Positions 2,079 to 52,828 of a DNA stretch of 64,000 nucleotides are shown here, in pieces. Positions within the stretch are counted from its first letter, which is position 1. Every line of letters starts with the position of its first letter. The position numbers and the translations under genes are program-made. A model generated the notes under the pieces. The model was given only the letters and a program-made list of their open reading frames with translations. It did no database searches and was not told the DNA's origin. Source of the stretch: Terebella lapidaria (Eukaryota > Annelida > Polychaeta > Terebellida > Terebellidae); NCBI GenBank assembly GCA_949152475.1, contig OX424570.1, positions 27,152,694 through 27,216,693 of the forward strand, in the 5' to 3' direction.

Positions 2079-5000
2079 ATGGATTTCTTTACTCTCATCG
2101 TCTTTGTGGCACTAGCCAGTATCGCAACAACAGAATGTGAGTATGATAATCTGGCATGGCGATATAAACACATTTACATATTGAAGTCTGAAAAATAAAA
2201 ACATAAAATTACGACTACTAACGAAGCACTGAGTTTCGACAACTTATTGCAGGATATACTTAGTAGTTCCATCTCTTTTGATTGTTATCAGCCTACGACA
2301 GTCGGACATTCTGCATCTCAGATGGGGACTGGAAAGATGACGAGGGGTTTCTGTGCTCAGGTGATGACGTCATACAAGTAGATGAGCTGTTTCTCTACGA
2401 CTATAGTGAAGATTATGAATATTTATCTAGGGACTCGGATTATCTCTGCAAATATAAAACTGGCGACACCAGGGAGCCTTTAGTCAGAGCCAATCCAGAC
2501 ACATTTGTCAGAGTTGTGACAGCTTGTGATGGTCACCAGAGCTGTGAGGACTTCCATGTTCCGGATATCGATCTGTCGAATGGGAACGATGGCGACTATA
2601 TCATAATGAGCTACACGTGTGTTTTGAATACATCAATTTATCATCCCGTGGGTTGGTATTGTTCTCCAGTTTGGTTTCTTGATAGTATGCGATGCATCCA
2701 CTCCCCGCAAACTGTTAAAGCGCTGGATATGCATGTGTGAAAACGGACACGGCACATGTGTGAGAGATATGATGCATGTGTGAAAAGATAGTACATATGT
2801 GTGAGTAAATCAGGCCCGAACACAATTATATCATTATTGTGTGGTTAGAACGAATTTGCACAGAACCAACAGCCTACAATTATATATGGGAACAATATCG
2901 ATCATTTAAAACCAAGCAGCGGAAATGGTATGCACAAATTAATTTAGTGCAGTAAGTCACACATGTTGCGCTTGTTTTGGTTGTAAACTGCTATATATTG
3001 CAAAAGTTTGCGGTTCTGGTGGCAAAAGTGTACATGGAAATACCAATGAAAACCAAAATCACACATGTAGCGTCACCATTACGCCTAAAATTTAACGTTA
3101 TTTGATGATGTTAGTGCGAAATGATACAATGCATGTGTGAGGAACATTCGCTATGATATGATGCATGTGTGAGAGGATATTACACATGTGTGAGAGGATA
3201 GTACACATGTGTGATCACATTACATGAGAAAGAAACCAAGAAATTATGATATGTGTGTGCTAAACCTAATAGCGTAACCTGCAGCCTGTTATAATGATTA
3301 GGATACAGGTATTTCCGAAGCTCGAGCAAGACAGGTGCCCAGAGGTGGGTTGAATAGACTGGAAATATTGTCAATACAGTGATACAGGATTGTTTCCCAT
3401 AATGGGTCACATGGATAACATGATTACCAAGATTTGCATCCGGCATCTGCCCCACTCTGCATCGTAATTTCCAGACAGTAAGCCAAAGCGATCGGCGTAG
3501 AATCTACACATTCAATTTTAATAGGCTGCGTATGGGCCCGATATGCTGTATGTATGTAATATATGCTATCCATTTACGGCTCACCAGTAGGCCTACTGTT
3601 TTGTGTCTGCCATTTTTAAGTGTAAATAGCATACATATCCAAATGAAATTTATAAATACAAACACCAATAGTAATGCATTGATGAAATGTATTGGAATGA
3701 TTAGTGAGCATTTACCTATTAGACTGCTAGAAATCAGACGTTTACATAGCGAAACGACTGAAAACAGAAATAAGTCATGTAAGTCATAGCTGCAATATCC
3801 GTACATGTAAGTACAGACCCAAGCAAGCCATAATGGAGCGTTATGGGATGATTTATTTATTACAGTATTACTGATTTATTTAAATTTTCCCACGGGGAAG
3901 CTCTGATTGTTGATAGTAATAATAAAAATAAGATATGTATACAAATTTATCATCATTAAAGTGTATAGAGAGCCTTCGGTGCCGTGTAGCTAGTAAATGT
4001 GGATTAAATCAAGTGGAACCATATAGAATAAATACGATTGAACAAATAATACTATTGCCGCCGTGAAGAGTGGGCAAATGTCGGCATACAGAGCCAGTCT
4101 TGAATGTGGAGTGTCAAAGACATGATTGTAGTACATTAATTTGTCCAACCAAATAAGCAGACGAACATAATTTGTAGTAATATTAAGTACATATATATAC
4201 AGTACATAAATTTACTGCAAAATATTAATCATCTTTATAAAGCAAACTACAATAAATTGATCGAGGATCCTGTTGTATTCTAGTAATACACCGACATGTC
4301 AATATATTGAATGATGTACATGTAAGTAAAGAATCACTTACAAAAGTGTGCCAGGAAATAGAGAGATTTCGCATCAAAGACGAAGAAAATCATCATTTGA
4401 GGTACTAGATGTCTAAACGTACATACCAAAAAGGAAGTTGATATTTTATTATATAATTCAGTGCGAGTGTATCGTAATGATTTACCTGACATCAAGTATT
4501 GGACCAGTTAGGTGACCCTAGAGTTGCAGAGACAATGGAGCTGAAACAGCTGACAGTTAAATATGATAGGCCACAAGATAACAATAGAGTCAAGGCATAT
4601 CATTCGTACATACCATCCAATTCTTAGTAGGGTATTTTATAGTTTATGTTATAATAACACAAAGCGACAAACCAGAAGCAGTTGTTCAGTGCCACAAGTT
4701 TTGCTCGGACATGTACCACGACCAAGAAGGTTTATTTATCATATTTCATCGGGCTCAACGTACATCAATTCCCTCAAAACAGTCTTTGTTCTATAAGCGT
4801 GATATCCTTTTATCATCATGCAAAATTCAATTTTAACCATCACTTCTGACACTCGGTCCACGCTGTAATCAGCTATAGTCACAAATAGTGTAATGGTTTT
4901 CAAGCATGCTAGTATTTTCGATTAAACATGCTGAATGCACCTTACGCAGATTTCGTGACTGCTTGGACGGCGTGTGATGTGGTCGAAAGCCGAACAATAT

Positions 5001-8000
5001 TACCACATAACTTAGTCGTTGAGCCTAGCTGCCAACTACAACCCTAAATAATTTGGGCAAACTCACTCGTATTGTATTTTCAAATATCACCAAGATCGTT
5101 CAGTAGCCTGCCTTTTATACATAAAACCCCATATTGTGCAATAACCCTATAATATGTTCACAGCTTACAACCGATAGGACGCCAAAGTACTAGGATATTT
5201 TATGCACGAGAGCACCCGCCTCTCAAAGTAATATTCATGTTGGTAATTGATTGGTAAATGAGATGATTATTTTGATGAATGAAATGAATATTCTCGCATA
5301 ATTATTTAAACAAATTGACCCTAAACTGGTAAGATGATAATTTCCACACAAAACCATCACTATGCTGTGTTTGATAGCAACTGAAGGTTACATGTGATAT
5401 TTTAAAGGTTACAAGCTGGAATTGTTCTCATTCCCGATTCCCTTCCTGAGTACCCGGGAAAGAACATTTCTTATTCCCGTTTCACCTGAACAGGAGATCC
5501 GAGAATAAATTAAAACATAGTCAAAATATGTATTTGAATGAATGACACTCCTCACACATGCAGCAAAACATCATATCATTTCTCACACATGCATACTATC
5601 TCCTCACACATATGTACTGTCTTCTCACACATGTGTATTGACATGGTGATATTATTTTGACCAAAAAACTGCGTGAATAATGCAAATAAACAGCAATTTT
5701 CACCATCGGGCCAGTCAATAGTTATTCACGTGTACCATAAATTACGCATTGGGGGATTATCAACAGGTTTTCATACGTATTCAACAGAAACTGTCATCGT
5801 AACACTTGAATGCGTTTTAAGTTCCAATAAAACTGGTCTACATTACTGCAGAGCATGTTATAATACATATAATACGACACAACTTCTTACTTTCTCGTTC
5901 CAGTGTCCTGTTTTAGGTATACCACTATTTTCTGGCCATGGAACCATGCTGGGTGACAATTACTCACACATATGTACTATCTTTTCACACATGCATCGTA
6001 TCTTTCACACATGTGTCTTGTCCGTTTTCACACATGCATATCCAGCGCTTTAACAGTTTGCGGGGAGTGAAATAATATAGCCCCACGCGTTTGTACGGAA
6101 GCTCATATTCGCCACATAGAGGAGCACAAATTTTTTTTAGAGCGTTATAACGCTTTAATTACAGTGTAATAACGCTGTAATACAGCGTTATAACGCTCTA
6201 ATTTACAGCGTTATAACGCTCTAATTTAGAGCGTTATTACGCTCTAAATTAAACCGTTCACCTTCCCATCATATTTCCAATGTCTTGATTTATAATAAAC
6301 ATATCTAGATCAGAGTAATTTTGAGATTTCCCTACATATGATTGAGCTGATGAACCAGCAGGTCCGATGATGTCTCTGGCAGTGTAAATTAGAGCGTTAT
6401 AACGCTGTAATTTACAGCGTAATAACGCTCTAATTACAGCGTTATTACGCTGTAATAGAGCGTTATAACGCTGTAATTTACAGCGTAATTACGCTCTAAT
6501 TTACAGCGTAATTACACTCTAATTAGAGCGTTATTACGCTGTATTAGAGCGTTATAACGCTGTAATTACAGCGTTATTACGCTGTAATTAGAGCGTAATT
6601 ACGCTGTAATTAGAGCGTAATAACGCTGTAATTAGAGCGTAATTACGCTGTAAATTAAAGCGTAATTACGCTATAAATTAGAGCGTTATAACGCTGTATT
6701 AGAGCGTTATAACGCTGTAATAGAGCGTTATTACGCTGTGATTAGAGCGTAATTACGCTGTAAATTACAGCGTAATAACGCTGTAATTACAGCGTTATTA
6801 CGCTGTAATTAGAGCGTAATAACGCTGTAATTAGAGCGTAATTACGCTGTAAATTAAAGCGTAATTACGCTTTAAATTAGAGCGTTATAACGCTGTAATA
6901 GAGCGTTATAACGCTGTAATAGAGCGTAATAACGCTTTAATTTACAGCGTAATTACGCTCTAATTTACAGCGTTAATACGCTGTATTACAGCGATATAAC
7001 GCTGTATTAGAGCGTAATTACGCTGTAAATTAGAGCGTTATTATGCTGTAAATTTGAGCATTATTACGCTGTAAATTAGAGCGTTATTACGCTGTATTAC
7101 AGCGTTATAACGCTGTATTACAGCGTTATAACGCTGTAAAGAAAAAAGTGCATTCCTCCATCTGGCGAATATGAGCCACCGTACGTTTGTGTGTACTTTT
7201 TAAAGGATTGTTTTGTCCTTGCTTTCAGAAGTGGCGTCAATACACAGTGTGAGTGGTCTGGACTGCCCCTCAAACCGATCGCTTCACGTTATCTCAGCAC
7301 ATTACGTGTTCGAGAACCGAGGCAGCTGTCCGTCCAACAAGAGGCAGGCTGTGGAGGAGGACTACCTGAGCGAGATCGTGGATACGTGTGATGGTCACAA
7401 CTCCTGTGACGTCATACTACAAACAAAAACCTTCTACTGTGGAACCTTCTCCTCATATGGGGTGAAATCTGTAGACGTCGAGATCCGATACAGATGCAAC
7501 TTACCAACAGGTACGCTTCAGATATTCGGAAAATCAACCGTTTACACAACGTGGTGAAATTATGTCAATTGATAATGCACTAAGACACGTTAAGGTGAAT
7601 TCACACGTTTGGGCCAACGTTTGCCAGCGTTTTGAAAAGTTACCAAAAATGAGACCAAACGTTGGTGAAAATACGTTCAGAGGAAGAAAAAATTTAGTTC
7701 ACATAGTGAGCGTTTGGAGTACAGCGTTGGCGAGCGTTGGTGAATGTTTGGTAACGATAGCGAGCGAATTGGCAGCGTAGCATGAACTTTACATAACGAA
7801 TGCGAACTTTTGCTAAATTAAGCTAGCTTTGGTGGAGCGTTGTCCAGCGTAGGCCAACTGAGCAGAACTTAGCTCAACACATGCTGAGCGCATATCAACG
7901 GAGCTCAAAGAAATACAACGATCATATAAAATGAGAGCTTTTTCGGGCGGATAGCCATCAATCGAGCAGCTTTTCCAAGTGCAACATTGTGACGCTCTGA

Positions 8001-8986
8001 TCCAGAACTCTACGATTATGTCAAATGTACAAACTTATACTACGAAAGCTGGGCCAACCTTTGATTCGCGCCTGTTACAGTCGGCAAACGTTATAGAACG
8101 TTTTTCAGTTCATTCGCAAAAGTTTATAAAAGTTTGATAACGTTGTGCAAAGTTGGCCTCCATTGTGCTAAGTTGGCAAAAGTTAAAGCTATAATCACTT
8201 TTAGAATTGACTAAATTTATTCATTCTGTGATAGCTTCATTTTGTCTATAGAATGAGAAATCGGACAAATTGGGGTCTGAAATTGTGAAATACGTGTCTA
8301 AATTGAGTTTCAACATGTTCAACATTTCCGACGAACTTTAATTTCCCAAGCATTCACCAGCATACACCGACTTTCACCAACTTTCAACAACTTTTACCAA
8401 CGTTTGCCAATACGTCGGTAAATGTCGGCCCAAACGCAATAGTTTGAATCCACCTTTACTTATGGAATCGACAATCATGAAAATAAAGACATGTAAACTT
8501 TTAATTATTATCACTAAATGTGTTCTATTCATGCTCACCTCGATTTCCTTATGTTTTCAAACTTGACCACAGGGCAATCAAAGCGTATTTTAGAGGCTGT
8601 GACGGTTCTATCTTTAGATATCTATACGCTCGCCAGTTGACCAATCAGAAATTCCACTAATTCATTACGCCAATAAGCGCATGAAGCACGTCGTACATAC
8701 TTGGCACAATTATCAATATCAAATTAGGCATGATAAAAAATACAATTATTATAATCATTTCAGACGATAGGCCTACCCATACTATCACACAAAAATCCCT
8801 CTCTACAATATCGCCAGAAACGTCAGCATGGACGGACACATCACGTGACCACTCTGATGACGTCACGGCGTCTCTCTCAAGCCTGACATCACGGAGTTAT
8901 ATCGGAGCTCCTGGCGGGGGGAGTGAGCACCAAACTGGATCAAAAGCAGGTACATCGTGACAATAATCAGCTATTTTTAATGGAAT

Positions 8987-9035
<49 letters not shown>

Positions 9036-11089
9036 CGAAACAGGAAAATCAGCTTTCAACCATCATGAACAACTGACTGCTTATAATGATTATGTACATT
9101 TACGTGCGAGTGGCTTTAACGGGACATATTTATATGTCAACGAAAAAAACCCTGCGCATATTATATTCCAGTGCACTCCACAATTTATTTCCTTGATGGG
9201 AGTGTGAGCCCATGTTATGTACAGTCCTGTTCTTGTCTCTAATATGTAAACGATACTCTTGGTTCATTTTCTAATATTCCTGGCCATTGAACTCAATTGA
9301 ATTTAACTGTAATTAAATTCAGAAAATCAATATGCGAGCAATGCAAATTCAATTACATATCCCCGTTTCACAATCTGACGTATTCTATCCTAAACTTCAG
9401 TTGTATAACCAGTTTTAGAAAGTATATTCGCTAGCTGTCGAACATAGAGTCATACCGTGATATCCGGAAAATGATGTAGGAAACAAAGTATATATCCCTA
9501 TAGTATTGAGATTTGTCACGTTATACTCCAGGTCTGTATGTGGGAGTGGCTGTCGGAGCTGTGGTCGTGGTCGGGGTCATCATCCTGGTCGTGTTCTTCG
9601 CTCGAAGGTTAATAAAAAAATATTGTTTGCAAATATGTGCATTTCATATATTACAGGGCAAATTAAGTTGCATTGAGTTGAGTATGAGTTGCGAGCTAGC
9701 TTTTACTTATGGAGTGTTCAAACAACAGACCTCACATCATGTTGGATCTCAGCAGAAGCTCGTTCTGTAGACGTGTATTGTTTTACTCACCAGAGGCTCC
9801 AGAAAGAAGAGGACCCGAGACCACATTGAACTCGTACAACAGAACTCTAGCAGCCACAGTGGGCCCGCCACTGAGCACGGACTTGTAGGGACCACCAGGG
9901 ATCACGGGACTGTAGCGGACCCACGTTACGGGGAGGTTGAGTACAGCATGGTGGGGGAACCCTGGGGTGAGTGTCTACACTGATTGGATATAAACAGGGA
10001 TGACACTTTATTGATTCAGGTGCTTTGTGGAGAAATCGATTATCGGGTTTTGTTATGGGTAATACTAATACATTATTGGCTTTTAATATGGGAAGTATAA
10101 CTCATGAGAATACAACCCGTTGCGTCAAATATTGGACATGGGGAGGACAGCAAGAATGATACACTAGTTCACAAAGGAATGATTATACAGTTATCAAAAC
10201 TATTCATTATGGGAACCAAGAACCAGGAAACATAAATTACATGATATAAAAGGCCCAACCTTTATTACATGCTTCATTTCACTGTATAATTGTCCCTGCT
10301 ATACCTCTAACGTGGCGGACACAAGGATCGACTAGAATATAGATGATCCTTGGCGGACATGCACCGACATAATTATTACCAGATCAATACGTCATCAGCT
10401 GATCATACTCCTAATACAGTCAAGCTTCGAGTTCTAAGACAAATATAACTTGGAATATCGAGGAAGCCCGACAAAACATCTATAACAGCCACTGCCCTCC
10501 TCCAGATTCCTAATTCGGAGAGAATTTTTTGGGTTGATTCTTTCATGGCATTTACTTCTATATCCATTAATTTTTGTTTCGATATGTCATCTTATTCACT
10601 TTTTGGGTTAAATTGATTTTTGAGTCATTTAATGACATTTACATTTCTGATCATTCATCTTATTTACGATATTTCAATAAATCATATTTACCTTATTTAA
10701 AATAAATTGAATCTTCAACAGATGTCGAGCCCATGGGGACGCCAGTTTGCGTGTACGCCGCTCCCGTGAAGCCTGACAAACACCTCACACGTCAGGACAC
10801 TGACAAGGAGGACACACTGCAGGAGAACGTCAACTACGAGGCGACTCCGATGCAGCAGCAAATCATAACGTCCCGAGCCCAACCGACACCCGTACAGCAT
10901 CAAATCATAACGTCCTCAGTGATTGATGACACGACGATTGTGGATAATTCCGAGTACGCGCCATGGGCGGCTAACAATAACATTGTTATTAGCGGGGCGC
11001 CAGGACAGGACAGGCGTGATCGAGACCGTGTCCGGGATACTGATGACACAGTAATGGTTGATAATCTGGAGTACTCAGCCTGGGCATGA
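2079..11089 (+). CDS. Gene 1: membrane receptor with two SUEL-like lectin domains and tyrosine-rich tail
   Basis: Seven exons fit GT-AG rules and one frame (497 aa): 2079-2136, 2292-2651, 7229-7510, 8764-8949, 9532-9607, 9803-9966, 10722-11089. Residues 1-19 are a hydrophobic signal peptide. Residues 20-139 are lectin-like domain 1 (six Cys, core TACDGHQSC, ending YTC). Residues 140-233 are domain 2 (core DTCDGHNSC, ending RYRC). Residues 234-295 are a Ser/Thr/Gly stalk. Residues 296-320 are a Val/Ile-rich transmembrane helix followed by basic residues. The tail has EVEYSMV (fits ITIM), ENVNYEA, VDNSEYAPW and VDNLEYSAW at the C-terminus. The exon 2 donor (GTTGGT) is weak and is chosen by phase and by alignment to the paralogues. 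Intron 2 (4.6 kb) is filled by two transposons. The lectin call rests on cysteine and core-motif spacing; ligand and function are unknown. Confidence 0.82.
2699..6069. mobile_element. 3.4-kb non-autonomous TIR element in gene 1 intron 2
   Basis: The ends are inverted repeats of over 100 bp beginning CACTCCCCGCAAACTG, with the last 9 bases at 6061-6069. The arms are rich in CACACATGTG/CACACATGCAT words, which also occur at 3120-3220 and 5540-5650, themselves inverted. No transposase frame is visible and no clear target duplication was found, so the superfamily is not assigned. The left end lies 47 bp from the gene 1 exon 2 donor. Confidence 0.8.
6095..7182. mobile_element. 1.1-kb TIR element filled with a palindromic satellite
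   Basis: The inverted ends read ACGGAAGCTCATATTCGCCA and ACGGTGGCTCATATTCGCCA. The flanks GCGTTTGT (6087-6094) and ACGTTTGT (7183-7190) are an 8-bp target duplication with one mismatch, as in hAT-type elements. The interior (about 6135-7140) is an array of ~20-bp units, each itself a palindrome such as AGCGTTATAACGCT or AGCGTAATTACGCT. Confidence 0.8.
7590..8459. mobile_element. ~870-bp palindromic MITE in gene 1 intron 3
   Basis: The left end reads TAAGGTGAATTCACACG..GTTTGGGCC. The right end, reversed, reads TAAAGGTGGATTCAAAC..GTTTGGGCC. The interior repeats CCAACGTTTGCCAGCG-like words in both orientations. Exact ends and target duplication are unclear. Confidence 0.6.
8988..9036. repeat. 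(CAA)n microsatellite
   Basis: A perfect run of about 16 CAA units shortly after the gene 1 exon 4 donor. The Asn run in the translated frame is intronic, not protein. Confidence 0.9.
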
Positions 11090-13346: not shown

Positions 13347-16300
13347 ATGGAGTGGATTTTTCTACTGGTTATATTTGACATGTTCATCTTTGTTCCATGC
13401 ACAGAAGGTATTCAGGAATAGCATTAATATAATGTATACATATTGTTATATACTTTTTTGAATATCCAAATGTTCAATTTAGGCTGGAAACAATACCAAT
13501 TGTTGCCTACAGACTCGCCTAATGTATGTGTACTTTCTTATTTTCAGTTGCAAACAGGACGTACTGTACGGGTGATAAAATAAAGTATGACAAACTGTGC
13601 TTCGATGGGGAGATTTGTCAAGTTGAAAGTGTCATTGCCTACAATAATCAATGGCCTGGTAATCATAGAGAGTGTACATACCAGGATGGGGATGAAGCAA
13701 CACCGCTAATCCGCTATTACCCAGATGAGTTCGAGAACGTTGTTACTGCCTGCGATGGCAAACGGGCTTGTCAGAACTTAAAAGTTGACAGAGATGCGGC
13801 GGACTACGTAGTGATGTACTACACCTGTATTCCGAACGTCCCGACAGGTAACTGTGCATTTCATTAAATAGGTTATTCATCATTCACTACAAATGTATCC
13901 GTATACGTAATTGCGAATAATTATACTGAAGTACTGTGACGATATTCACGTCCGACGCACAGTGAACACTAATTAAATGGAAACCGCTCGAACTCAAATA
14001 AAACTAAGATATGTTTGTACAAAAATTCAGAACGATTTGACAGTAAACTTTATAGATAAAAATGTTAATCGACGGAGGGACACAACGCCACGACAATAGG
14101 TTATCGGACCATTTTTGGCCCATTTCTAACCGTCCCGATATGCGAGGAATTTTATGGATATTTCCATGCACTATAAAAAACAAAAACATAATAGTAAAAA
14201 AACCGTCGGTAATTGCCATGCGCAACATATGTCAATATGAAGGAGGTCAATACCGCAATATATCAGACCGATTGCAACAACTAATATTCTAGCACAAACT
14301 TTATCCAATTTCATCGGACTGACAATCTCACAGCAAAAAGTTTGAATTACGCAAAATTTATTTATGAGGCGACCACTTTTTTCTACTCTGGAATCCTGAC
14401 GTTTACTCGTTTGTTTTTCCTATATTCGTTCCTGTTTACGTCTTTCTACAAAAAGCCTACAGGTGACATGTCTTTTCTGAAACAAAGTTAGCACGTTTGC
14501 ACGTGGAAGCATTCAACACTATCATTTGTCATATACTATTATGTCCACACGTAGAAAGTTCCAAACCTACCATTTTCACGGATGTGAACGTGGTAGCTTT
14601 TTGCACTTTTATGTTCGATCGTGATAGGTTTTTTTTGTACAAGAAAATACACCCATTTTTCCGCGCATGTCCCCTATGGGCTTCCGTACCATTCAACTAC
14701 ATTAGAAGGTATATTTATGTACCATGTAATTATGATTCGAATGGGAGTCAACGGCAATTTCCTAGAAAAATGTCACATTTATATATCAAGAAGTAAGAAA
14801 AGGTGGTAATCTAGCCCGATATGTTAATTTGTAATTATACGGTATTAAACCGTCGGCTGAACTGGGATCCGACAGTAAATGTGTATATGTATGTTTTTTC
14901 AGTCATTCAGTCCCTCAGTAATTCCACTTGGCTCCAATGTGATGCACACCATCGTATCCACATCATCCTTGCTTACTACGTATATACATACCCCTCATGG
15001 TGCGAGCAGATGGAGCATGTTGATGAAGATTACTTCACAAATATTAAGGAATCGTGTGACAACACGTGCATGTGCAATGTGCCGTTCAAAGAGGGAACCA
15101 TGCCTTGTTTAGGATATGAGACTTCAGATGACGTCGTGATACATTACAGATGTAATGAGCACCAAGGTAACAATAATTGTTCCAGTCAGAACCGTCAGAT
15201 CAACCAATTACATATTCAAATTACATGCAATGTAGAAGAACACGCTCATCGCGGGCACATATTTTTAACAGCTATTATTATTATTATTATTATTATTATT
15301 AGCTACTGTTATTATTATCCTATTATAATTAGCTACTGTTATTATTATTAAATGTTGTTGCAAGATGTTTTAGCACTAACTGAGACTTCATGTCCACAGA
15401 TGTCACAACATTGACAACCCCTACAGAAACTATAGCAGGTCATAACTCATTTATTATACACACATGTGAACTTGAACCTGTGGCGCTGTCGAAGATTGTA
15501 ATAAACTAAAGGAAACGTGCTATCTACATATGTAGTAAACACGTCACCTAAAAATAGATTAGCAAATAAGCGATCGTGGCCTATCACTTAGGGGCCGTCA
15601 TATCTTTGATATTCGGAGTGACACATCGCATCATATTTTTGTGCGGTTTGAGATGTCCAGAAGAGTATAACTTGCACTAGTATATTACTCTTGAAAGATA
15701 GGCCTACAATTTTGAGATATAATGACCAGATTGGCAAGGCAAATGTGTTATCGAATATTGCTTAAGGTGCTGGAAAAGCAGTGTTGATAAAGCGTCAGTA
15801 TCATAAAATCATTCAGGTCAAGATAAAAAATCCCATGTGTCATGCTGTATATCATACTAATCACGCGATGCCTAAAACAATATTTTATCAAATAGTACAA
15901 TGGATAAGCTAGATTCTTTCGTGGGAAATCAGCTATGGATGTTGAAATGTGGCCCCTTATTGAATGATTTACATAGACCTTGCTATTGGTATGTCAAGCC
16001 CTCTAGGGGGGTGATTCCAGTCATAGATATCACCTGATTTAACAAACCCTCCGCCCGAAGGTTTTGCATAGGCTACATGAACGCGCAACAGTTTGTCAGA
16101 AAGGAATTCTAGTACATGTATCTTATTTTCAGATTTCGAAACGAACATTCCTTTCACTGTTACAAGTATCTTCTTCACTGTTACATTGGAGGAATCGACC
16201 ACCTTTTCCGCAGGATCAGACAACGATACTGGTAAGGAAACTGGACTTGCCTGTATCAACTCTGTATCAACAAATGACAACTCGAGTTGTTCAAGTCTAG

Positions 16301-18427
16301 TTGTGAATGTTCTATACAACACGTGATGGCGGACATACGCTTCCGTAATAATTTTACACATTATGCCATCTCATCTTGTTCACACTAGGACGTTTTGTCG
16401 TGATATATTTTCCCATTGATGTGACTCGTTAAAATGGTACATGCAAAAAATCGTCCTGAGTTCTTCATATTAAAACAACTCGACGAGTATTTGTGAACAC
16501 ATGTCTTATTGTTAAAGTTAAAACGACGAGTTTGGAGGAATAACAGATTATGAGGGTGTACAATGTATGCCTCCATAGGAAACCTGATCACCAAAAATCT
16601 CAAACTCACACCAAATCCCAAAAAGATGAACGAAATACAAACTGGTTCATATGAACTTTTCCTACATGAAACGCGGACACAAGTTGAACCACTGCTCAAA
16701 TGTTGGAACTTTTTATAAGTGCATATATCCCCATGGCAACCATTCACGTGAAAAATGGGCAATTGTCTTCACTTCTACTCTTTCTGATCAGTAATGGCAT
16801 CACACCTGTGTTCCTCCGATGAACATCCGTGTACCCAATCAAATAGTTCCTAAAAAACCTTGGATTTCATGGCATGTATACAGTCTTTGTGGATTTTGCT
16901 CATATAACTGGTGATGTTTTGCAGCTAAAAAACACTGCATTACATGTCGTTCTGACAAAACATTAAATATCTGGTATTCCTACGCCGAACACACATGTTT
17001 CGAGGGGACCTCGGCTGTCAGACGCTCGTCGGCAAAACGGGCGGAAACTGGTGATTCTTTTCATTTAGACATAGCGAAAAAACGAGCGTGTGACCATATG
17101 CCGAAATGGCATTTTTATTACTGCCCAGTGATGTAGCTGTCAGAAAAAAAATGAAAAATATGTTTAGTTTCTTTCCCTTTAATAGAGATAAGAGGGTCCG
17201 AAGTGGGACAATTTAAATTGATTTATATAAGGCCTTTAAAGTCGAGTGTACAGCCTTATAGGTCCAAGAGTCAAATGGTTCAACTTTCTGTGATATGGTG
17301 TTATTACATGTACTTGAACCAGTTCATATGAACCTTTTCTATGAAACGCGCAGGTTCATATGGACCATTGCTTGTGAAACGCGATTATAACTTTGTACGT
17401 CGGTGGTAGTTTTGGAAGAGAATGTCAGAGGTTGACTTGAATGAATGATGCTGTACAATTCGTTACAGTTCATGAACATTGTTTTTTTTTCGAATTATAT
17501 AGCACAATCGTATAACATACATGTGAGGTGTTCTAGCGAAAATCAAACCAAATAAAAAAAATTCATACACTGCAGATATTGACTCCTCTGTCGATTTCCA
17601 GGGTTGTATGTGGGCGTTGCCTTGGCTGTTGTCACGGTGGTTGTCATGGTGATTCTAGCGGTGATTTGCCTAATGAGGTGAGCTGTGCATGGATACATTA
17701 TGAGAGGTGTAGGTATAGAAGACGGACTTAGGTTCTGTGTTTGGCTATTCATTGTGTACCAGGCATGACTTGAACGTATTTAGTCGGAAACTAAATACCA
17801 ATTTCTGTTGAATATGCCACAGTCAGTGTTTATTTGGGGGTGTAATTATTCATTATAATGACGATGATTGCATCATTAATGTGCTGAATAATATGTGTAT
17901 CATTCTCCAGGAAAGGGTTGTTATTCAAGAAACCCAAAAATACGACTCACACAAACCCAATGTACGGCTCAGAAACACCACCGCCGGCCGACGTAAACTC
18001 CCCAGTTTACTATAACACAGCTGCTGATATAGATACAACGAACCACTACATGAATGGCAGAGTTGGTTCTGAGTACTCTCGGAATACTGGTTTTGCCGGC
18101 ACCACTGTAACGATCGGTACTGGTGCTCCCACGAACGGCGACGTTTACAGTCGGGCTGGGCAGGTTGATGATTATTCTGAAATTAAGTCATCGGACAAAA
18201 ATTTATATGCGACGGAACTTCATGACAATAACAATTACGAAGCATCCGCACAAGTGTCTAACAGAAAAGAGGTGCTCGCTCTGGTTCCCTATGAGCTGGA
18301 AATCCAAGACAACGTGAACAACGAGCAGTCGGGTTTCCAAGCAACCGATGGAAATATGGATGAGGAATATGACCAAACAAACATGGTGGATAACATGGAA
18401 TATATTCCTTGGAAGAACAAAGACTAA
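13347..18427 (+). CDS. Gene 2: membrane receptor with two SUEL-like lectin domains and tyrosine-rich tail
   Basis: Seven exons (451 aa): 13347-13407, 13548-13847, 14903-15166, 15400-15438, 16133-16231, 17602-17677, 17911-18427. Residues 1-20 are a signal peptide. Residues 21-120 are lectin-like domain 1, which has seven Cys, core TACDGKRAC, and an N-glycosylation sequon just before Cys1 (NRTYC). Residues 121-208 are domain 2, whose core is altered to SCDNTCMC. Two small exons (39 and 99 nt) encode a Thr-rich stalk. The 76-nt exon encodes the membrane helix (GLYVGVALAVV start). The 172-residue tail contains NPMYGSE, DVYSRAG, DDYSEIK and the terminal VDNMEYIPW. It lies head-to-tail 2.3 kb after gene 1. 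The 39-nt exon has a weak donor (GTCATA) and is the least certain piece. Confidence 0.82.
15273..15350. repeat. (ATT)n microsatellite in gene 2 intron 3
   Basis: ATT units with AGCTACTGTT interruptions, 107 bp after the exon 3 donor. Confidence 0.85.
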
Positions 18428-19802: not shown

Positions 19803-21030
19803 GGGAAGCTTGTTAAGGACATTCACTTTTTTTTACTTATGATTTAACTTTTTTTTCTCCCTGATGATTCACTCCCTGGGAAAAAGCAGAGAAACTGGGA
19901 AATAAATATTTAAAACCCGAAATTAAATATTAAAACTGGGAATTAAGTATTTAAACCTGGAATTAAATGTTCAAACCGGGAAATAATTATTTAAACCTGG
20001 AAATAAATGTTCAAACCCGGAATTAAATATTAAAACCCGGAATTAAGTATTAAAACCGGGAATTAAATGCTTAAACCGGGAAATAAATATTCAAACCGGG
20101 AAATAAATGTTCAAACCCGGAAATAAGTATTAAAACCGGGATTTAAATGTTCAAACCCGGAATTAAGCATTTAAACCAGGAATTAAATATTCAAACCCGG
20201 AATTAAGTGTTAAAACCGGGAATTAAATATTCAAACCGGGAAATAAATATTTAAACCTGGAAATAAATGTTCAAACCGGGAAATAAATATTCAAACCCGG
20301 AAATAAATATTATAACCCGGAATTAAACATTTAAACCCGGGAAATAAATATTAAAACCGGGAATTAAATATTAGAACCTGGAAATAAATGTTTCTGGGCT
20401 TCAATAATTATTTCCCAGTTTTAATACTTAATTCCGGGTTTTAATATTTAATTCCCGGTTTAAATACTTAATTCCGGGTTTGAACATTTAATTCCAGGTT
20501 TGAATATTTATTTCCCGGTTTGAGTAATTAATTCCGGGTTTTAATACTTAATTCCAGGTTTGAATATTTAATTCCAGGTTTTAATACTTAATTCCGGGTT
20601 TTAATACTTAATTCCGGGTTTGAATATTTAATTCCGGGTTTGAACATTTATTTCCTGGTTTGAATATTTATTTCCCGGTTTGAACACTTAATTCTGGGTT
20701 TTAACACTTAATTCCGGGTTTGAATATTTATTTCCCGGTTTTAATGCTTAATTCCAGGTTTTAATATTTAATTCCAGGTTTGAACATTTAATTCCAGGTT
20801 TGAATATTTAATTCCGGGTTTGGACATTTATTTCCAGGTTTAAATATTTATTTCCCGGTTTGAACATTTAATTCCAGGTTTAAATACTTAATTCCCGGTT
20901 TTAATATTTAATTCCGAGTTTTAAATATTTATTTCCCAGTTTCTCTGGTTTTTCCCAGGGAGTAAATTATTCTTCAGAAAAAAAGTTAAATCATGAATAA
21001 AAAAAATTGAATGTCCCTAATAAGCTTCCC
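19803..21030. mobile_element. Foldback element with mirror-image minisatellite arms
   Basis: The ends GGGAAGCTTGTTAAGGACAT and (reversed) GGGAAGCTTATTAGGGACAT sit inside TA dinucleotides at 19801 and 21031. Inside, about 25 units of AAACCCGGAATTAAATATT type (20 bp) run from 19885 to 20395. The same unit then runs in reverse orientation from 20400 to 20940. The whole is a large hairpin. A TA target duplication would fit a Tc1/mariner-type MITE. Confidence 0.8.
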
Positions 21031-29700: not shown

Positions 29701-29794
29701 CTCCACCTGAATCACCTCATCCCCTCGACAGAGTGGGTGGTGGTGACTGTACTCCACACCAGTGCAATAGGTCTCATTCAGAACTGCAAGATAG

Positions 29795-29830
<36 letters not shown>

Positions 29831-29970
29831 TTGAAATTATTTACAGGCGTCTGCCGCATGTGACACCATATGTATGTAATGAATCATATCACACTATTAC
29901 CTGTCGCGTAAGACACGGACAACAGAGAGAACAGCGTGAACATATATACAAAACTCAAGGTTTTATCCAT
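26764..29970 (-). CDS. Gene 3: membrane receptor with two SUEL-like lectin domains and tyrosine-rich tail
   Basis: Five exons on the minus strand (479 aa): 29970-29901, 29783-29460, 28117-27743, 27634-27559, 27358-26764. Residues 1-23 are a signal peptide. Residues 24-131 are lectin-like domain 1 (VLNETYC start, core SACDGRREC, end EYVC). Residues 132-256 are domain 2 (ECPPMKEIEV, DACDGKPYC, VYFKC) plus a Thr-rich stalk in the same exon. Residues 257-281 are the membrane helix (GLYAGVAVAGVLVIVVIV). The 198-residue tail has TAYSEV (fits the ITSM consensus TxYxxV), ADYSLA, DEYSVV, VDNVNYEQC, DTDYVPW and the terminal VVDNVQYASW. It is the most complete minus-strand member and the reference for judging damage in genes 4 and 5. 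It converges on gene 2. Confidence 0.85.
28608..28737. mobile_element. 130-bp palindromic MITE in gene 3 intron 2
   Basis: Arms of over 45 bp start TTAATACATGGTTAATTTC and contain ACCGGTTATCGGGACC; the centre is rich in GGTCCGTTAT words. Confidence 0.8.
29792..29827. repeat. (TAA)n microsatellite before gene 3 exon 2
   Basis: On the gene strand this is a TTA run ending a few bases before the CTTGCAG acceptor. Confidence 0.85.
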
Positions 29971-34992: not shown

Positions 34993-36668
34993 TTACTTCT
35001 CGTCCCTAGTGCACATTTTGTCTCTGGCTACCCTTGGTGTGGTGGAGAGTTGAGGTCTGTTGGGTAACCGTTGGTTCACGTGGGCTGGGTTCGCGTGGGC
35101 TGGAGTACTCCTTTTTTTATTTGAAACTCGTCTACTGCAGAAATATTGAAACAAATAACTCCCTGGGAATTTGAGTCAATCATTCATCACAACCATTCAT
35201 CACAAACAATCTCATTCTAGAAAATCCAACGAAAATAATTTTATCTCATTCTAGAACATCTAGCGAAAATCATTTTATTCGAGATAAAATTTCACACCTA
35301 AAGTCCTACACTTAACTAAAGTGTTACTGATGCAAGGAACCATTTTATACCTGTATTTTATTATCACCTACCTTATTACACAGACAGTCGTCACAACTAC
35401 GATTACAACCAAAACGACACCAGCCACGGTTATGCCCTTGTTTGAACCTGTATGGGACATATTAATTGCTGAAGCATTGTTCGGGAATAATAATATCATA
35501 AATTAAATTATTCACCAGTAGATCAGTAAAGTAGTAATCCTCATCGATACCCTGCGGTGTTCCACTGGTCTGATTACGTCTATTGGCTTCAGTAACTTGA
35601 CTGTCATCAAGTGATGTTGTCCTAGTCTGGGAAGCACAGGGCTGGTCTGATGTAGCCATGCTGTCTGCAACAGGCAGGGAATCCGCTGTTTTTGGTGTGG
35701 ATTCTCTTGATTTCATCAGCGAGGTCGTCTTTGTTGTTGTTGTTGTTGATGATGTTGCAACAGCACGACATTTGAAGTACACAGCCACTTGGTTTGATAA
35801 TATCCTTGTGTTGTTGTCACACCGACCAATGTTACTTCTGTATTTTACGTTATCGCAATGCGATTTACCATCACAGTTTTCCCGAATGTCTGCGAAATAT
35901 GCTGCATCCCCGTGCCAGTAATACGACCCCCACTGACAAGTGAAACGATAAAATGCAGCAAAAACCTCGATCTCATTCAATGATGGGCATTGCAAACTCG
36001 TGGTCGAGTCGAACATTCGGAAGCCTGGGGATACAATGGTAAACAGCATTCATGTAATTATTCGGATTAACTTGGATGTGTATAATATTTTTACCTGTGA
36101 ACTGATTCAGAATAGTATACTTCTTTATTTTACACGTCTCTTTTGCAATCTGACAAATAAAGACGTTTATTTTATGAATGAATAAATGAATAAAATGAAT
36201 AAATTACTTTTTATTCATTTTTAAAAAAAATCGTCACATTTGATCAAATAACTACCATAGATGGTATCAGGCCTACATACTATCAGAAATATATAACGAG
36301 AAATGTAATCCTGATATGATGTCCGGTTTTAGCACCTCACCTCCCGTGTGGTGGCCAGTACATCTGTAATGCATCACCACGTAATTGCTGGTGTGACCAT
36401 CGGGAAATTTTATATCTGAGACATAGAATGTTGAGCAGGCCACCTTCCCGTCACAAGCGGACACAATCTTGACAAAATCGTTAGGATTCAGATCTGACAG
36501 ACGTTCTTCTGTGTCACGGGAGTCATAGCGACAGGAGATACGCCGGTCATTCCTCTCGTGATAGTCATAGACAAACACGTCCTCCACCTGAATCACCTCA
36601 CTAGCTTGGCAGAGTGGTTGGTTATTTGTGAGCCATATTCCAGTGCAATAGGTCTCATTCAGAACTGC

Positions 36669-36700
<32 letters not shown>

Positions 36701-37469
36701 TCTCTTTCGGGGTATGTCCGACTTTGGTCGTACTTACCCCATGGTAATTTTAGTTTAACGAGGAAAAGCCAGTACTCCATTTTAGCGTCCCAAACCCCGA
36801 CCACCAGCCCTACCAGGACACCCAGGCCCATAGAAATGAATCCAGATACATTTGTGGTGTTACTAAAACGGCATGACATTTAAGAAATTCTAGCTGCGTT
36901 TAAGAAATTCTATGGACGTCATCATGATCTGGTTGATAAATACAGCAAATCCATGTCTGCCATGCAACTAGATCTATTTTCATGTTAATTTTGGGGAATT
37001 CATGACGGGTGCCACTAGTGGGGCAGGAAATGCTCACTCTTTCCGGAACACCTGATTTCACCTCTTATTGGCCATTTACGGGGGTTCATGAGTTTCCCTG
37101 TCATTTTTGTTTTCTCTCACTTTGTATGCCTGATATGACTTTCTGTCTATGAGATTGGACTATGAGATTGGACTATGAGATTGGATAACGGACCCTGTTT
37201 TGTTTGCTCGGAATACTTAATACTGGGTATTGATTCCACGTCTATTGTCTCCCCATCGATATTGTAATAATAACAATAATATTATTATTGTAAAGATATT
37301 GTAATGTCATCTGTAGCAACTAGATAATGGGTATACGGACTCAGTTTTGTTCGCTTGGAGTACTTAGTACTTGGGTATTGATACCATGTTTGCTCTTACC
37401 TGTCGCAGGTGATGCGGAGAGCAGAGAAAACGCAGTGAAACAATACACTGATCTGAGTGTCCCATCCAT
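34993..37469 (-). CDS. Gene 4: lectin-like membrane receptor with truncated cytoplasmic tail
   Basis: Five exons (361 aa): 37469-37400, 36664-36341, 36024-35551, 35447-35372, 35134-34993. The signal peptide is residues 1-23. Lectin-like domain 1 is 24-131 (core SACDGKVAC). Domain 2 and a Ser/Thr-rich stalk are 132-289 (core NCDGKSHC, end VYFKC). The membrane helix is 290-314 (GVVLVVIVVVTTVCV). The tail is only 47 residues against about 200 in gene 3. It aligns through the APAHVNQ-like and TPRVA-like stretch, then stops at 34993 where the paralogues reach their first NVYT motif. No tyrosine motif remains. The exon 3 donor used in genes 3 and 5 (GTAATG) is changed here to ATGAGG; an in-phase GTATCG lies 6 nt upstream and is my chosen donor. 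It could be a short-tailed or decoy receptor, or an early pseudogene. Confidence 0.75.
36665..36698. repeat. (TAA)n microsatellite before gene 4 exon 2
   Basis: Same position relative to the acceptor as in gene 3. Confidence 0.85.
37141..37395. repeat. Tandem repeats in gene 4 intron 1
   Basis: GAGATTGGACTAT occurs three times at 37150-37190. A ~65-bp segment (TTTTGTTTGCTCGGAATACT) at 37181-37245 is repeated at 37324-37390. Confidence 0.65.
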
Positions 37470-45578: not shown

Positions 45579-46730
45579 ACCTCTTGGCCGGGCACATTGG
45601 CACTACTGGTGTGCCATCATCCTAGCAGTCAGCACAGACAGGATGATTCTGTATACTAGTAGTATTATTATCAAAAACCGTCAGTCGATAATATATTTCA
45701 ATGATGAGTAATTGTTGAGAACCGTTCTATCAGTTAATATGTCCTTTGAAGTAGGGGAAGAGGGGGCAAAGCGGGCCACCTAACTTACACCAAAGCCCAG
45801 TCCCACGCAAACGTTTCTAATCAATAATTCCTGCGTTATGATCATATGAGGAAATCTTGCTTTATTGAAATACAACCCAAAAAGTGACGTAGAAACACTG
45901 TATTAAAAATTACGAACAATTCTAAGAAAATTTCGTTTTGGCCCACTTTGCCCCCAGGGTGAGGAAAAGTGGGCCATACAGGTGTACAAAGTGGGCCAAG
46001 GGCCCGTTTCAGCACCACAAATAAATAGTCAGATAAAAACAACCATCAAAGTTAATATATGATACACCTTACAGCTTATGATTTAAAGTGAGTCCGCTGA
46101 TTGGTATGATGGAATGAAAACAACACCCAAAGAGTCCAACATATTGTTTATTTGAGATCATTTTGATGAGATGATTAGATGTCAGCCTGATTACGAAAAG
46201 CGGGCCATGGGGCAAAGCGGTCCACCCCCAGTAAAAACGTCATTGTCGTGGAAGGCGTTGCTGAGTAGCGTCTGTCATATGCGCCAATTAAATTTCAACA
46301 AAAAAGTACCTAGTTTCAGTGGGAGTGGCCTATCGTCAAATGCTTTTCAGAAATCAATGAAGTGGCATGGTTTTCTTACAAGAAACAAGGTATTTACCAA
46401 CGATCATTAGAATATTTTTTTGACAGCAATATAAAGATATAGAATGTAATTTTGTAGCAAATTTTGTCAAGATAATAACTGTGTTCTTCGTTTTTCGCTT
46501 TGGGACATCAATAAATGCATGTGGTGATGGAACTAGTTATATATCGTGTTTGACAAAGTGGGCCCCACCAGATGTTGTGGTCTGTGTGTGGAATGATAAT
46601 AGTGCTGTGAATAAATATATGATTGAATACATGGCATTTTTATACACATCCATGCACACCCACATAACAAACACACACATACATTTATACCTTTGTGCAG
46701 ATGATAGGGTGTTGTTATAATAATTCGCAG

Positions 46731-47015
46731 ATGGTGAAGCGTTACAAACGTACCACTAACCAAGGCGCTTGGTCTGTGGAGAACCTCCGCAGTGCCATGG
46801 TGCAAGTCGGTGAAGGCATGTCTACCAGAGAAGCATCTCGTCAATTCGAAGTACCGAGAAGTACTTTGCAGAGACATCTTAAACACGGGAATGAAAACAT
46901 GTCTCTGGGGGCGATTTACAACAGTATTCTCCGTAGTGGATACAATTTCATTCTAATAATCCTTAATGATTCTTATAATTCTTATAAATCTTATGATGAC
47001 ACCAAAGTTTTATAA
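46731..47015 (+). pseudogene. Pogo/Tigger-type transposase N-terminal fragment
   Basis: The frame begins MVKRYKRTTNQGAWSVENL and continues to REASRQFEVPRSTLQRHL at about residue 50. This is the helix-turn-helix (pipsqueak/CENP-B-like) start of pogo-group transposases. After LKHGN the similarity ends and the frame stops at 47015, so this is either one exon or a truncated copy. A TTCGCAG acceptor-like sequence lies just before the ATG. No DDE catalytic region is seen nearby. Confidence 0.65.
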
Positions 47016-49118: not shown

Positions 49119-49198
49119 CTACTCGGTCCAGGCAGAATACTGGACATTGTCCACTATAATAGCCCCCATGCCGTCTGTCCCTGTCTATGGCTCTGCTC
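49119..49198 (-). pseudogene. Out-of-frame relic of the gene 5 C-terminus
   Basis: Just past the gene 5 stop, another frame reads GAIIVDNVQYSAWTE then stop, matching the gene 3 C-terminus (VVDNVQYASWTEK). Nucleotide alignment to gene 3 shows one extra base before this point, in the G-run near 49220, and two fewer bases after it. The terminal motif is thus no longer translated from the main frame, unless an undetected splice event restores it. Confidence 0.75.
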
Positions 49199-51928
49199 TT
49201 ACGATTGACCCCTGGATGTACCCCCAGCGGTGGACTTGTCACCCCACGGGACATAATCAGTGTTCTCTACCATTATGGTTTGATCTATGTCATCATGGTC
49301 AACTCGAGCGGCTGTACCACGTGTTGGGGGGCATTTTATAGAACATTGCTCATAGTTAACATTGTCCACTATCTCGAGTTCATCCGGGTCCTTTCTCTGT
49401 CGATTAACTATTGCATATTCATCAACTGCTGTGGCTAGACTGTAGTCGTCTTCCGGAGTAGCGCCCTCGCCGTGTATAGCATTGGTGCCGCTGTGTCCAG
49501 AGTTAGTAGTATAGTGTACACTTCTGGTCCCCACTTGGACTCGTGCCTCTGTGTTCGTGCTGTGCTCTCTGTGATGACCAGCTGGGTTCACAGCAGACCC
49601 TACTTGGCTATAGCCCTCCTCGCTCATAGTGTACACGTTGTCTGTAGCTACCCTCGGTGCCGGCGAGACTTGGTCTACGGCAGGTCCCACTTGGCTATAA
49701 TCATCATCTTCCATAGTGTACACGTTATCAGTGGCTACCCTTAGTGTGGAGGAAACTTGGTCTGATGAGTGACCATTGAAGGCAGGGTTTGCGTGGGCCG
49801 GAGTGCTAGTGTTTTTGTTAGAAGCTTGTTTTCTGAAAAACGTACAACAACAAATATAAACGAATTTTATGGAGAATCATATTCTGTGCTTTCCTCTATA
49901 TTCAGTAAGGATTAACGGATTAAATGGTATGTTTTCAGTGGACGAGTATTAAGGAGTAGTGTACGGTACACAATCGACAGATTCCAGCTTGAGTGACAAA
50001 ACCAGCTGTTTTGGGCAGTGAATCTATTCATTTGATTACCACTTACCTTTTCACACAGACAACTGTCATAACTATGACTACAATTACCACGATGCCACAG
50101 ACAGTTACACCGGCGTATAATCCTGTGCAAAAAACAATGTAATGGTTACGGATTTCAGATATGACATATTTGTTTTGGGTAAATGGGCCAAGTAGCGCAC
50201 CTTACTCTGTTAATACTACTCACCCACTGAATGTATCTATCATATTTAATCCGTCTGGCACATTTTTAATCTTTATTGAATTTAGAAGAAATAGTAAGTT
50301 GCGCTACATGAGCCGGTAAATGAAATACAATTCCATTGATGACTATAATATTGTACCACGGGTAACACTTTTAAGAATAGGCAAGCTGTGTTTTATTCTA
50401 TATACACCACTCCTTGCCGTGAAATGTAGGAACCAGATGAGCCATTCACACCCTTAAGCATGGCGTACACATTCGGTAATCCTCTCGGCTAATGTCTCGA
50501 GAATAACCTCGTGTATGACCATACCCACGGGTGGTCGTGTTCTATTTACTACTTGTTCGTTGTATACCCCTTTCTCACAGTCCCGAGTATGCTTCACGGA
50601 AGGCGCCGATAGAAAAAAAAATATGTAATCCGTCGATTATACTGCCCTTTCTGACGATTTAACGGCTTCATCCTCGAGATCCGGGGAGGAACATGTTTGA
50701 TTTTTTTCATGGTACCCACGACTGTTCTGTTGTCTTGTCGCTTCCGCGGATATATCGCGTGTATACGGTTTGAACCGGCGTGAATACGGCGGATATACGA
50801 CAACTTTTGTGAGTTTCACACCCTCAAGGACCTCACGTATTTCCCATAGCATATCACGTATACACGCAAGAGTTATCGGCCCAAGTACCGTACACTGCTC
50901 CTTAATACTACTCGTTCACTGAAAACATACCATTTAATCCGTCTCGCACCTTTTTAATCCTTATTGAATATAGAGGAAGGCGCAGGATATGATACTTGGG
51001 CCGAGTTATCATAGTAGTGCGGAGTATACGTCAGCACTGCTCGACCATAGATGTGTGTTGTTGCCTATTCTCCTTCCAACACTGCGACAAATCGTGGTCA
51101 GTTACGTTATTTCGTGGGGTGCCTTGAGTTGTACGGAAATGTGTACTGCATGCGCAGCTAGGGTCATCTTTTTCAGGCCTTCTTCGTGGTCTTACTGGAA
51201 CAGCATTATCTTCCGTACAATTTCACACGATGAAATCATCTAGTAGATTGATTTCGAAACACCCAGGATCTGAATTTATAGCTGAGACGTGCAGTAGTCA
51301 GAAATAATAACCAGGGGGCGTGGCTTTTACGTGGCTCTGCACGACCACACGTAGGATTAGTACGAAACGTCGTAAGGTATATTCTTTGTTGTCTTGCGTT
51401 TATACGCCTGCTCTGCCTGCATATTCAGCTGCCGCGATTTGATACTTATGTAAGTCGCCGGCAAGTCGGCGTTTGCTGGCGGTCTATCGCGATATCCGTA
51501 GGACAATACGTGTGTAACTTCGCGCATCCGTGATACGTTAGCCCCGTTTTCAACGTTTCCTCGCCGTATCTATGTACGTATTACCGCTGTCTTCCGTGAC
51601 GCTCGTGATAAATGTCGGGACTTCATTTGCATAAAGGCCACGCCCAACAATTATGTAATGATCCGGCGATGTTACTTCACGGACTGCCGTGAGTTTGCCG
51701 CGGATTAACCGGCTATGTGAGAAAGGGGCATTACCAATACTTTGCGGGGTTCCATTCGACTGATGGCGACCACTTGCGCTGGTGCCTCGAGTGTCACTGG
51801 GTGTTGTCTGCTGTGTTGTCCCAGTCTCGGCGTGGGGAGCAGATACCGACGTAGAGAATGCTCCGTTTGTTGTTGTACTTTCCGTTGTTGGTGGTTTCGT
51901 TGTTATCGTCAATGTTGTTGTTACTGTT

Positions 51929-51960
<32 letters not shown>

Positions 51961-52828
51961 ATTGCATTTGAAATACACTGCAACAGATGTAGACCAGGGC
52001 CTTATAGATCCGGAATTACACCAGATCCATTTGTACGATTCCCTGTATTCCACATTCTGGCAGTGTGATCCACCATTACACTCTCGCTGGATCTCCCCGA
52101 GATACTCTCCATCCACATGCACATATAACGATCTCTGTCCACACGGTAAACCATAATACACAGCTTCAACTTGTATCTCCTGGTTTGAAGGGCACTGGAG
52201 ACTTATGGCCGAGTGGTGAGTTTGGAACCCTGGAAACAATAGTGGCCATTCCAGATATGTCGTTTATCACGGAGTACATTTAGGAACATGGTACCAATGA
52301 TATAATGTCAAATATGTCATAATGATATTTATTTCACAACAGTTGACGACAAAACATGATGCTTATGTAATTTTTATTTTTGGGATGTTGGTTTAGGATG
52401 CTCATTGATTTCAACTAAAATTTTTCAATAGTAAAATCACGTATTGCATTGAGGACCTTCGTTGAATATAATCATGATACCATGTAAGAGCATAGATATC
52501 TCACCTCCAATCAATATGTCGGTACATCTGTATTGCATCACGACGTAATTGCTGGTGTGTTCATTGGTAAGTTTAACTTTTAGGACATAAAAATCCAAAC
52601 ACTCCCTCCTCCCGTCACAAGCAGACACAATCCTGCCGAAGTCGTTACGGCTAACATCCAACAGACGCTCTCCTGTGTCACGGGAGTCATAGCGACAGGA
52701 GCTACGCCGGTCATTCTCCTCGTGATAGTCATAGACAAACACGTCCTCCACCTGAATCACCTCGCCGGCTGTACAGAGTGGTTGATTATTCGTGAACCAT
52801 ATTCCAGTGCAATAAGTCTCATTCAGAA
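49199..52828 (-). CDS. Gene 5: lectin-like membrane receptor, signal exon not found, 3' frameshift
   Basis: Four exons recognised: 52828-52505, 52229-51735, 50122-50047, 49832-49199 (509 codons after the missing signal exon). Domain 1 starts VLNETYC (core SACDGRREC, end YRC). Domain 2 has ISLQCPSNQEIQV, ECNGGSHC and VYFKC. A long stalk is very Thr-rich, coded by an ACA/ACC run at about 51920-51960. The membrane helix is GIVVIVVIVMTVVCV. The 211-residue tail has two YSQV repeats, DDYSLA, DEYAIV, VDNVNYEQC and VENTDYVPW. Translation then shifts frame relative to gene 3 in a G-run near 49220 and stops at 49199. The terminal motif lies downstream out of frame. No exon like the signal exons of genes 3 and 4 was seen upstream, so the 5' end is open. 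Confidence 0.78.
49884..49971. mobile_element. Truncated GGCCCAAGTA MITE in gene 5 intron
   Basis: Core TTCCTCTATATTCAGTAAGG and GTTTTCAGTGGACGAGTATT are present; outer ends are partly lost. Confidence 0.7.
50185..50315. mobile_element. Diverged GGCCCAAGTA MITE in gene 5 intron
   Basis: Ends GGGCCAAGTAGCGCACC and GCGCTACATGAGCC; same core, more diverged. Confidence 0.7.
50878..51002. mobile_element. 125-bp hAT-like MITE in gene 5 intron
   Basis: Ends GGCCCAAGTACCGTACACTG and ATGATACTTGGGCC, flanked by exact GAGTTATC duplications (50870-50877 and 51003-51010). Confidence 0.9.

Follow-up and report, generated by a model that had tools for sequence, protein, structure and literature searches.

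Five genes of a common plan in the window

We analyzed a stretch of 64,000 nt from the genome of the polychaete Terebella lapidaria (762-Mb assembly GCA_949152475.1; contig OX424570.1, here C17:27152694-27216693), hereafter called the window, which carries a cluster of genes for putative single-pass receptors with two rhamnose-binding lectin (RBL)-like domains. Exon joins and splicing were inferred from sequence alone, and the genes are predicted models. Five models were obtained, all closing in frame: genes A (2079-11089) and B (13347-18427) on the plus strand, and genes C (29970-26764), D (37469-34993) and E (52828-49199) on the minus strand. Each contains an exon for a first domain (D1), an exon for a second domain (D2) and a transmembrane exon of 76 nt, with introns in phase 1 up to the transmembrane exon and in phase 2 at its junction with the tail. 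In these respects the shared plan put forward in the original prediction stands, while the signal peptide and the Thr-rich stalk that it assigned to all five genes apply to part of the set. Leader exons were identified for genes A to D, and none was found for gene E within the window. The stalk is Thr-rich and encoded inside the D2 exon in genes C, D and E, is Ser/Thr-rich with its own exon in gene A, and measures a mere 13 codons, six of them Thr, in gene B. Long tyrosine-rich tails had been announced for four of the five genes, and this was borne out: the tail has 179 residues with six tyrosines in gene A, 171 with 12 in gene B, 197 with eight in gene C and 210 with nine in gene E, against 46 residues and no tyrosine in gene D. 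No charged residue, of the sort by which activating paired receptors contact ITAM adaptors, was seen in the transmembrane core of the five window exons, the only ones surveyed.

Gene A starts with a leader exon that is signal-peptide-like in the exon model and by hydropathy and ends in phase 1 (2079-2136). It is followed by the D1 exon (2292-2651), whose donor, GTTGGT, matches the usual consensus poorly, the D2 exon (7229-7510), the stalk exon (8764-8949), the transmembrane exon (9532-9607) and two tail exons, one with the sequences YGEV and VEYSMV (9794-9966) and the other with two VDNxxYxxW motifs (10722-11089). Gene B comprises leader (13347-13407), D1 (13548-13847), D2 (14903-15166), stalk (15400-15438), transmembrane (17602-17677) and tail (17911-18427) exons, the last having itself as sole match in the genome.

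Genes C, D and E are close paralogues. Gene C is composed of leader (29901-29970), D1 (29460-29783), D2 plus stalk (27743-28117) and transmembrane (27559-27634) exons and a tail exon of the kind called type I below (26764-27358). The leader of gene D (37400-37469), located 0.7 kb upstream of its D1 exon (36341-36664), was recognized by homology to that of gene C, with 70% identity; it takes the place of a provisional leader at 36738-36831, which was rejected. D2 and stalk (35551-36024), the transmembrane exon (35372-35447) and the short tail exon (34993-35134) complete this gene. Gene E has D1 (52505-52828), D2 plus stalk (51735-52229), transmembrane (50047-50122) and type I tail (49199-49832) exons; its tail frame is broken before the last DNxxY motif, which persists in another frame at 49122-49178. 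A decayed D1 relic with stops lies between genes C and D (33263-33403, minus strand). In genes C, D and E, trinucleotide repeats lie a short way upstream of the D1 acceptors (29795-29828, 36669-36701 and 52832-52872). The Thr stalk of gene E is itself partly encoded by such a repeat (51913-51960), and stalk length could therefore vary easily.

Both putative extracellular domains are predicted to take the RBL fold

The domains had been described as SUEL-like, and we searched the ten window exons with the corresponding Pfam model, PF02140 (curated cut-off, 31.4 bits). All D2 matches fell below the cut-off, the best being that of gene A (29.1 bits, E=1.3e-6), followed by gene B (E=0.0017) and genes D and E (E of about 0.3); the D2 of gene C was not among the matches, and none of the five D1 exons matched. 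The D1 and D2 profiles nevertheless align to each other (82.7%, E=9.5e-6), and a sequence-profile search with D2 matched the lectin SUL-I (5h4s, E=3e-4). The D1 profile search of PDB sequences returned weak, unrelated entries only (best, protocadherin-15, E 0.043), so that a fold search was needed for this domain. RBL structures were the top matches of the predicted models of both D1 and D2, with moderate confidence for D1 and Foldseek E-values for the two domain models no better than 2e-3 and 6e-3, and no unrelated fold came first. The RBL domain of latrophilin was the best or near-best structural match. Eight conserved cysteines are attributed to RBL domains in excerpts of PMC2430599; alignments gave six in D1 and six in the D2 core of gene C. 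Both domains are predicted to take the RBL fold, though they lie under the Pfam cut-off. Chains of the Plasmodium RIPR complex and P113 also scored near true RBL domains against both models, as did the C-terminal domain of rice beta-galactosidase 1 against the D2 model.

The family extends well beyond the window

Genome-wide searches, in which all counts are lower bounds, supported a tandem family of two-domain, single-pass proteins and showed it to be larger than the window. Using the D1 of gene C as the query, 46 exon matches were found: 23 in a 440-kb cluster at C17:27.155-27.595 Mb with the window at its edge, five near 21.1-21.2 Mb, five near 15.8-15.9 Mb, one on C9, one on C1 and 11 distant ones on contig C16. 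The D2 of gene D gave 33 matches. For 31 of the 46 D1 matches, a D2 match of the same strand follows within 3 kb and before the next D1, which places the pairing beyond chance; it holds for 31/35 matches outside C16 and 0/11 on C16. Internal stops are absent from all 46 D1 matches and from 32 of the 33 D2 matches. Outside the window, gene L060 has the leader, the D1 exon, the D2 exon with its Thr stalk and the 76-nt membrane exon once more, and further loci also have membrane exons of 76 or 73 nt; the exon finder used gave none at L038, L040 and L063. No published description of this family was found in the literature searched by title and start of abstract, which is not proof of absence.

The genome further contains at least 150 PF02140 matches above the cut-off (150 scored of 231 candidates), many of them on C6, C3 and C16, and the window exons are absent from those 150. 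Three SUEL lectin genes are mentioned for Aplysia in excerpts of PMC9334734; set against at least 150 exon matches here, this is a rough contrast in differing units. The C6 arrays represent a second, larger SUEL expansion. At L059 (C6:13746000-13754000), which is among them, a single SUEL exon (E=2.9e-11) precedes a hydrophobic exon that one reading puts at 88 nt. Segments there that by eye resembled CUB and sushi domains were not confirmed by Pfam.

Two further copies deserve mention. Gene E (window 49199-52828) and its second copy about 63.9 kb further along C17 (L036, L042) are 99.9% identical over 3.3 and 3.45 kb; the copy may have arisen by segmental duplication very recently, or may be a haplotype left uncollapsed in the assembly. 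The D2 open frames of the two copies differ by one residue in the Thr-stalk repeat (237 versus 236 aa). A lone D1 copy, L032 (C9:22262966), is 93% identical to that of gene C, and its D2 match has a stop.

One kind of ectodomain precedes different tails

The tail of gene C (type I) gave 27 match rows genome-wide, seven with stops and some partial. In the genes at 27311050 and 27421069, this ectodomain plan and membrane exon are followed by another tail, named type II, which gave 17 match rows as a query, including copies on C3 and C4. By coordinates compared by eye, seven D1 genes run into a type II tail (27311050, 27335044, 27394484, 27413256, 27421069, 27428703 and 15846929), those after 27413256 and 15846929 being each in two pieces. 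A type I match lies downstream of 17 of the 46 D1 matches, two of these covering the first 44-68 residues only and one lying 15 kb off. At 13 tail-exon acceptors, covering both classes, AG is followed by phase 2; either tail can therefore follow the same membrane exon.

We compared the motifs of ten type I tails (genes C and E and eight other loci) with those of six type II tails (four from C17, one each from C3 and C4). Consensus forms for binding to adaptors with phosphotyrosine-binding (PTB) or Src homology 2 (SH2) domains are known, as is that of the immunoreceptor tyrosine-based activation motif (ITAM), with Leu or Ile at +3 of paired tyrosines. All ten type I tails contain two to three PhixNxxY motifs and none contains an immunoreceptor tyrosine-based inhibitory motif (ITIM) or YxN[MV], whereas all six type II tails contain one to two ITIM and two to five YxN[MV] and none contains PhixNxxY. 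The type II ITIM were called by consensus and are weak against shuffles, and the members of each class are related to one another, in some cases almost identical, and hence not independent draws. We dismissed by eye the possibility that type I tails contain an ITAM, because their paired tyrosines have no Leu/Ile at +3. The tail of gene A has two PhixNxxY, a number reached by 8 of 5,000 shuffles, and one ITIM-like site at chance level; that of gene B has one PhixNxxY (reached by 1,223 of 5,000). In the type I alignment, the eight tyrosine columns have a mean identity of 96%, versus 70% at the 198 other columns (0/20,000 permutations); the type II values are 90% versus 80% (p=0.0585, six rows). 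Both the motif classes and the conservation of the tyrosines support the proposal that the tails are of a signaling type, as far as sequence can indicate. On C3 (L072, C3:13367500-13375000, read with no gene model), the SUEL exons upstream of a type II tail have retained CEG, YGR and KYL-like motifs, which are classic sugar motifs, so the type II tail may be a module common to different receptors; near the C4 copy, no SUEL exon was seen in the 6.8 kb read, again with no gene model.

The same tyrosines could instead be clathrin-adaptor sorting signals (NxxY, YxxPhi) of endocytic or scavenger receptors. By their consensus forms, PhixNxxY suits PTB-type cargo adaptors and the YxxV elements suit AP-2, but the ITIM and YxN[MV] of type II tails suit SH2 partners better, and we consider this explanation improbable for the family.

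Relation to EVA-1 and other RBL proteins

The original prediction compared the SUEL domains with those of secreted lectins and latrophilins; the closest architecture, which it did not name, is that of EVA-1/EVA1C. EVA1C carries a C-terminal FAM176 domain (PF14851). No FAM176 match was found in the five window tail pieces (E up to 5) or in two type II tails (E up to 0.5), and for this reason the genes are not filed as EVA-1 members; a genome-wide FAM176 search also gave no match, but its controls were equally unmatched, so that this absence carries no meaning. EVA-1/EVA1C (C21orf63) spans the membrane once and has two RBL domains outside the cell (excerpts of PMC2430599), and EVA1C was formerly named Fam176C (excerpts of PMC3767613). 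The window genes likewise have two RBL domains, presumably extracellular, and one membrane span; they differ in their long tyrosine-motif tails of two types and their tens of clustered copies. Latrophilin, a G-protein-coupled receptor (excerpts of PMC2430599), shares the RBL fold, and its RBL domain has protein ligands in solved complexes, whereas two RBL domains and one membrane span are found here. The secreted lectins CSL3, SUL-I and SUEL also have the RBL fold, often in tandem; the present proteins differ in spanning the membrane, in having six rather than eight cysteines per domain (gene C) and in lacking the sugar residues.

A lineage-specific expansion of co-receptors resembling EVA-1, serving adhesion or guidance in a developmental or neural setting, would account for the ectodomain plan, and EVA1C has been termed a novel Slit receptor. 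Besides the negative FAM176 searches of the tails, a set of clustered copies, tens in number, that diverge and bear alternative tails would be unlike a conserved guidance receptor, and we give this explanation as little weight as endocytic sorting.

Latrophilin-type sugar-contact residues are missing

In latrophilin-1, rhamnose is contacted by Glu42, Tyr63, Gly117 and Lys120, and every substitution tried at Glu42 and Lys120 of the mouse latrophilin RBL domain abolished or dramatically reduced binding (excerpts of PMC2430599). We placed the Glu42 and Lys120 equivalents by cysteine spacing and the CEG and KYL motifs, rather than by superposition, in 19 distinct D1 and 17 D2 domains parsed by pattern, among them all ten of the window. 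The Glu is missing from all 36 (0/19 D1, 0/17 D2) and the Lys from 35 (1/19 D1, 0/17 D2). In contrast, among the genome's other SUEL exons, the Lys is present in 12 of 22 parsed and [YFW]GR in 20 of 22 (8/30 unparsed). The Glu occurs in just 3/22 of these exons, so that Glu alone does not distinguish the family. Sugar-contact residues are often missing in receptor RBL domains, for which the authors favor non-carbohydrate ligands; in EVA-1/C21orf63, Asp replaces the sugar Glu in the N-terminal RBL domain, and the C-terminal one has neither Glu nor Lys (excerpts of PMC2430599).

The glycan-sensing role originally proposed is not supported, since the latrophilin-type contacts are missing, and canonical sugar binding by D1 or D2 is unlikely. 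Pattern-recognition receptors binding microbial rhamnose or galactose through both domains would suit a fold family of rhamnose-binding lectins, a large expansion like that of immune lectins, and a genome whose 150 further PF02140 matches often have YGR and Lys; a different sugar site is possible, and the Glu is rare in other SUEL exons too. Against this stand the missing Glu and Lys and the effects of their substitution in mouse latrophilin, and the explanation appears marginally less probable than the two preceding ones.

Constraint on D1 and a possible mosaic history of the exons

The ratio of nonsynonymous to synonymous substitution rates (Ka/Ks) for D1 is 0.35-0.52 among genes C, D and E, indicating constraint, and 0.26-0.59 across the eight pairs measured. 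Between genes D and C, Ka/Ks is 1.09 for the transmembrane exon and 1.05 for the first 46 tail codons, which fits relaxed constraint on the membrane exon and tail start of gene D. Pairs with usable Ks gave D2 ratios of 0.27-0.76, values that do not support positive selection as the reason why D2 diverged. No usable ratio was obtained for the D2 of L037-L038 (no synonymous change), the D2 of L048-L049 (Ks saturated) and the tail of L045-L047 (one synonymous change). That the array is decaying, with most copies relics and their tails drifting, would agree with the D1 relic at 33263-33403, the frame break in gene E, the truncated tail of gene D, the stops in 7/27 tail match rows and the C-D ratios of about 1, but is very improbable given the D1 ratios in eight pairs, the open frames of 46/46 D1 and 32/33 D2 matches and the conserved type I tyrosine columns.

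D1 is better conserved than D2 in 126 of 136 non-independent pairs from 17 genes (mean 0.59 versus 0.47), genes A and B and two loci lacking D1 being left out. Between genes C and E, Ks is about 2.0 for D2, 0.53 for D1 and 0.46 for the tail; the tails of L048 and L049 are 92% identical and their D2 domains 42% identical, with saturated Ks. These values suggest exon-wise conversion or shuffling with D2 as the more variable module. In closely related type II genes, D2 is slightly more alike than D1, which weighs against such a pattern.

A paired-receptor-like signaling family as the favored reading

We favor, with a probability of roughly 0.58, the reading that these genes encode single-pass receptors of type I topology that signal through phosphotyrosine, with an EVA-1-like plan, a paired-receptor-like tail logic and, probably, a protein ligand. 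The leader exon would direct the receptors to the cell surface, where two divergent domains of predicted RBL fold would stand on a Thr-rich stalk; the 76-nt exon would cross the membrane, and the cytoplasmic tail would present conserved tyrosines in motifs of the kind bound by PTB or SH2 adaptors. The family would have grown through local duplication, the phase-2 junction behind the membrane exon joining one ectodomain kind to a type I, a type II or a short Tyr-less tail. Engagement of a ligand, probably protein rather than rhamnose or galactose, would lead to tyrosine phosphorylation and adaptor recruitment, and the tail type would set the outcome, as in paired receptors. For type I tails, the sequence evidence does not separate signaling from endocytic sorting.

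The best-known paired receptors with opposing tails are those of vertebrate immunity, mostly on Ig and C-type lectin domains, and KIR and CEACAM are clustered, with short-tailed members. Their logic is the closest to that proposed here, a resemblance that implies no membership. As in KIR, CEACAM and CD300, related ectodomains have differing signaling ends: clustered paralogues combine similar ectodomains with alternative tails, and ITIM are called in 6/6 type II tails. The differences are the RBL fold in place of an Ig or C-type lectin ectodomain, and a second long tail that is PTB-type rather than an ITAM-adaptor partner. Excerpts on CD300A and CD300C describe ligands in common and opposed effects. 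A more specific proposal, which we hold tentatively and judge rather doubtful, is recognition for immunity or self/non-self by tens of receptors with near-interchangeable ectodomains, a fast-diverging D2, and PTB-type, ITIM-YxNM-type or short decoy tails. If the paired-receptor logic arose here on a lectin fold that dropped sugar binding, tail-swapped receptor clusters would have been invented independently, and a concrete phosphotyrosine motif set and a candidate ligand-facing domain, both testable, would be available outside vertebrates.

Other features of the window

Between genes B and C, two arrays of a 20-bp unit face each other (19892-20936; 24.8 and 27.2 copies) and make up long inverted arms of up to 533 nt at 84%. 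An open frame of 605 aa on the minus strand (61920-63737), with PIF1 helicase and endonuclease matches, is Helitron-like. A further open frame (46668-47015, plus strand) has a Psq-type helix-turn-helix (E=6.2e-10) and possibly comes from a transposon.
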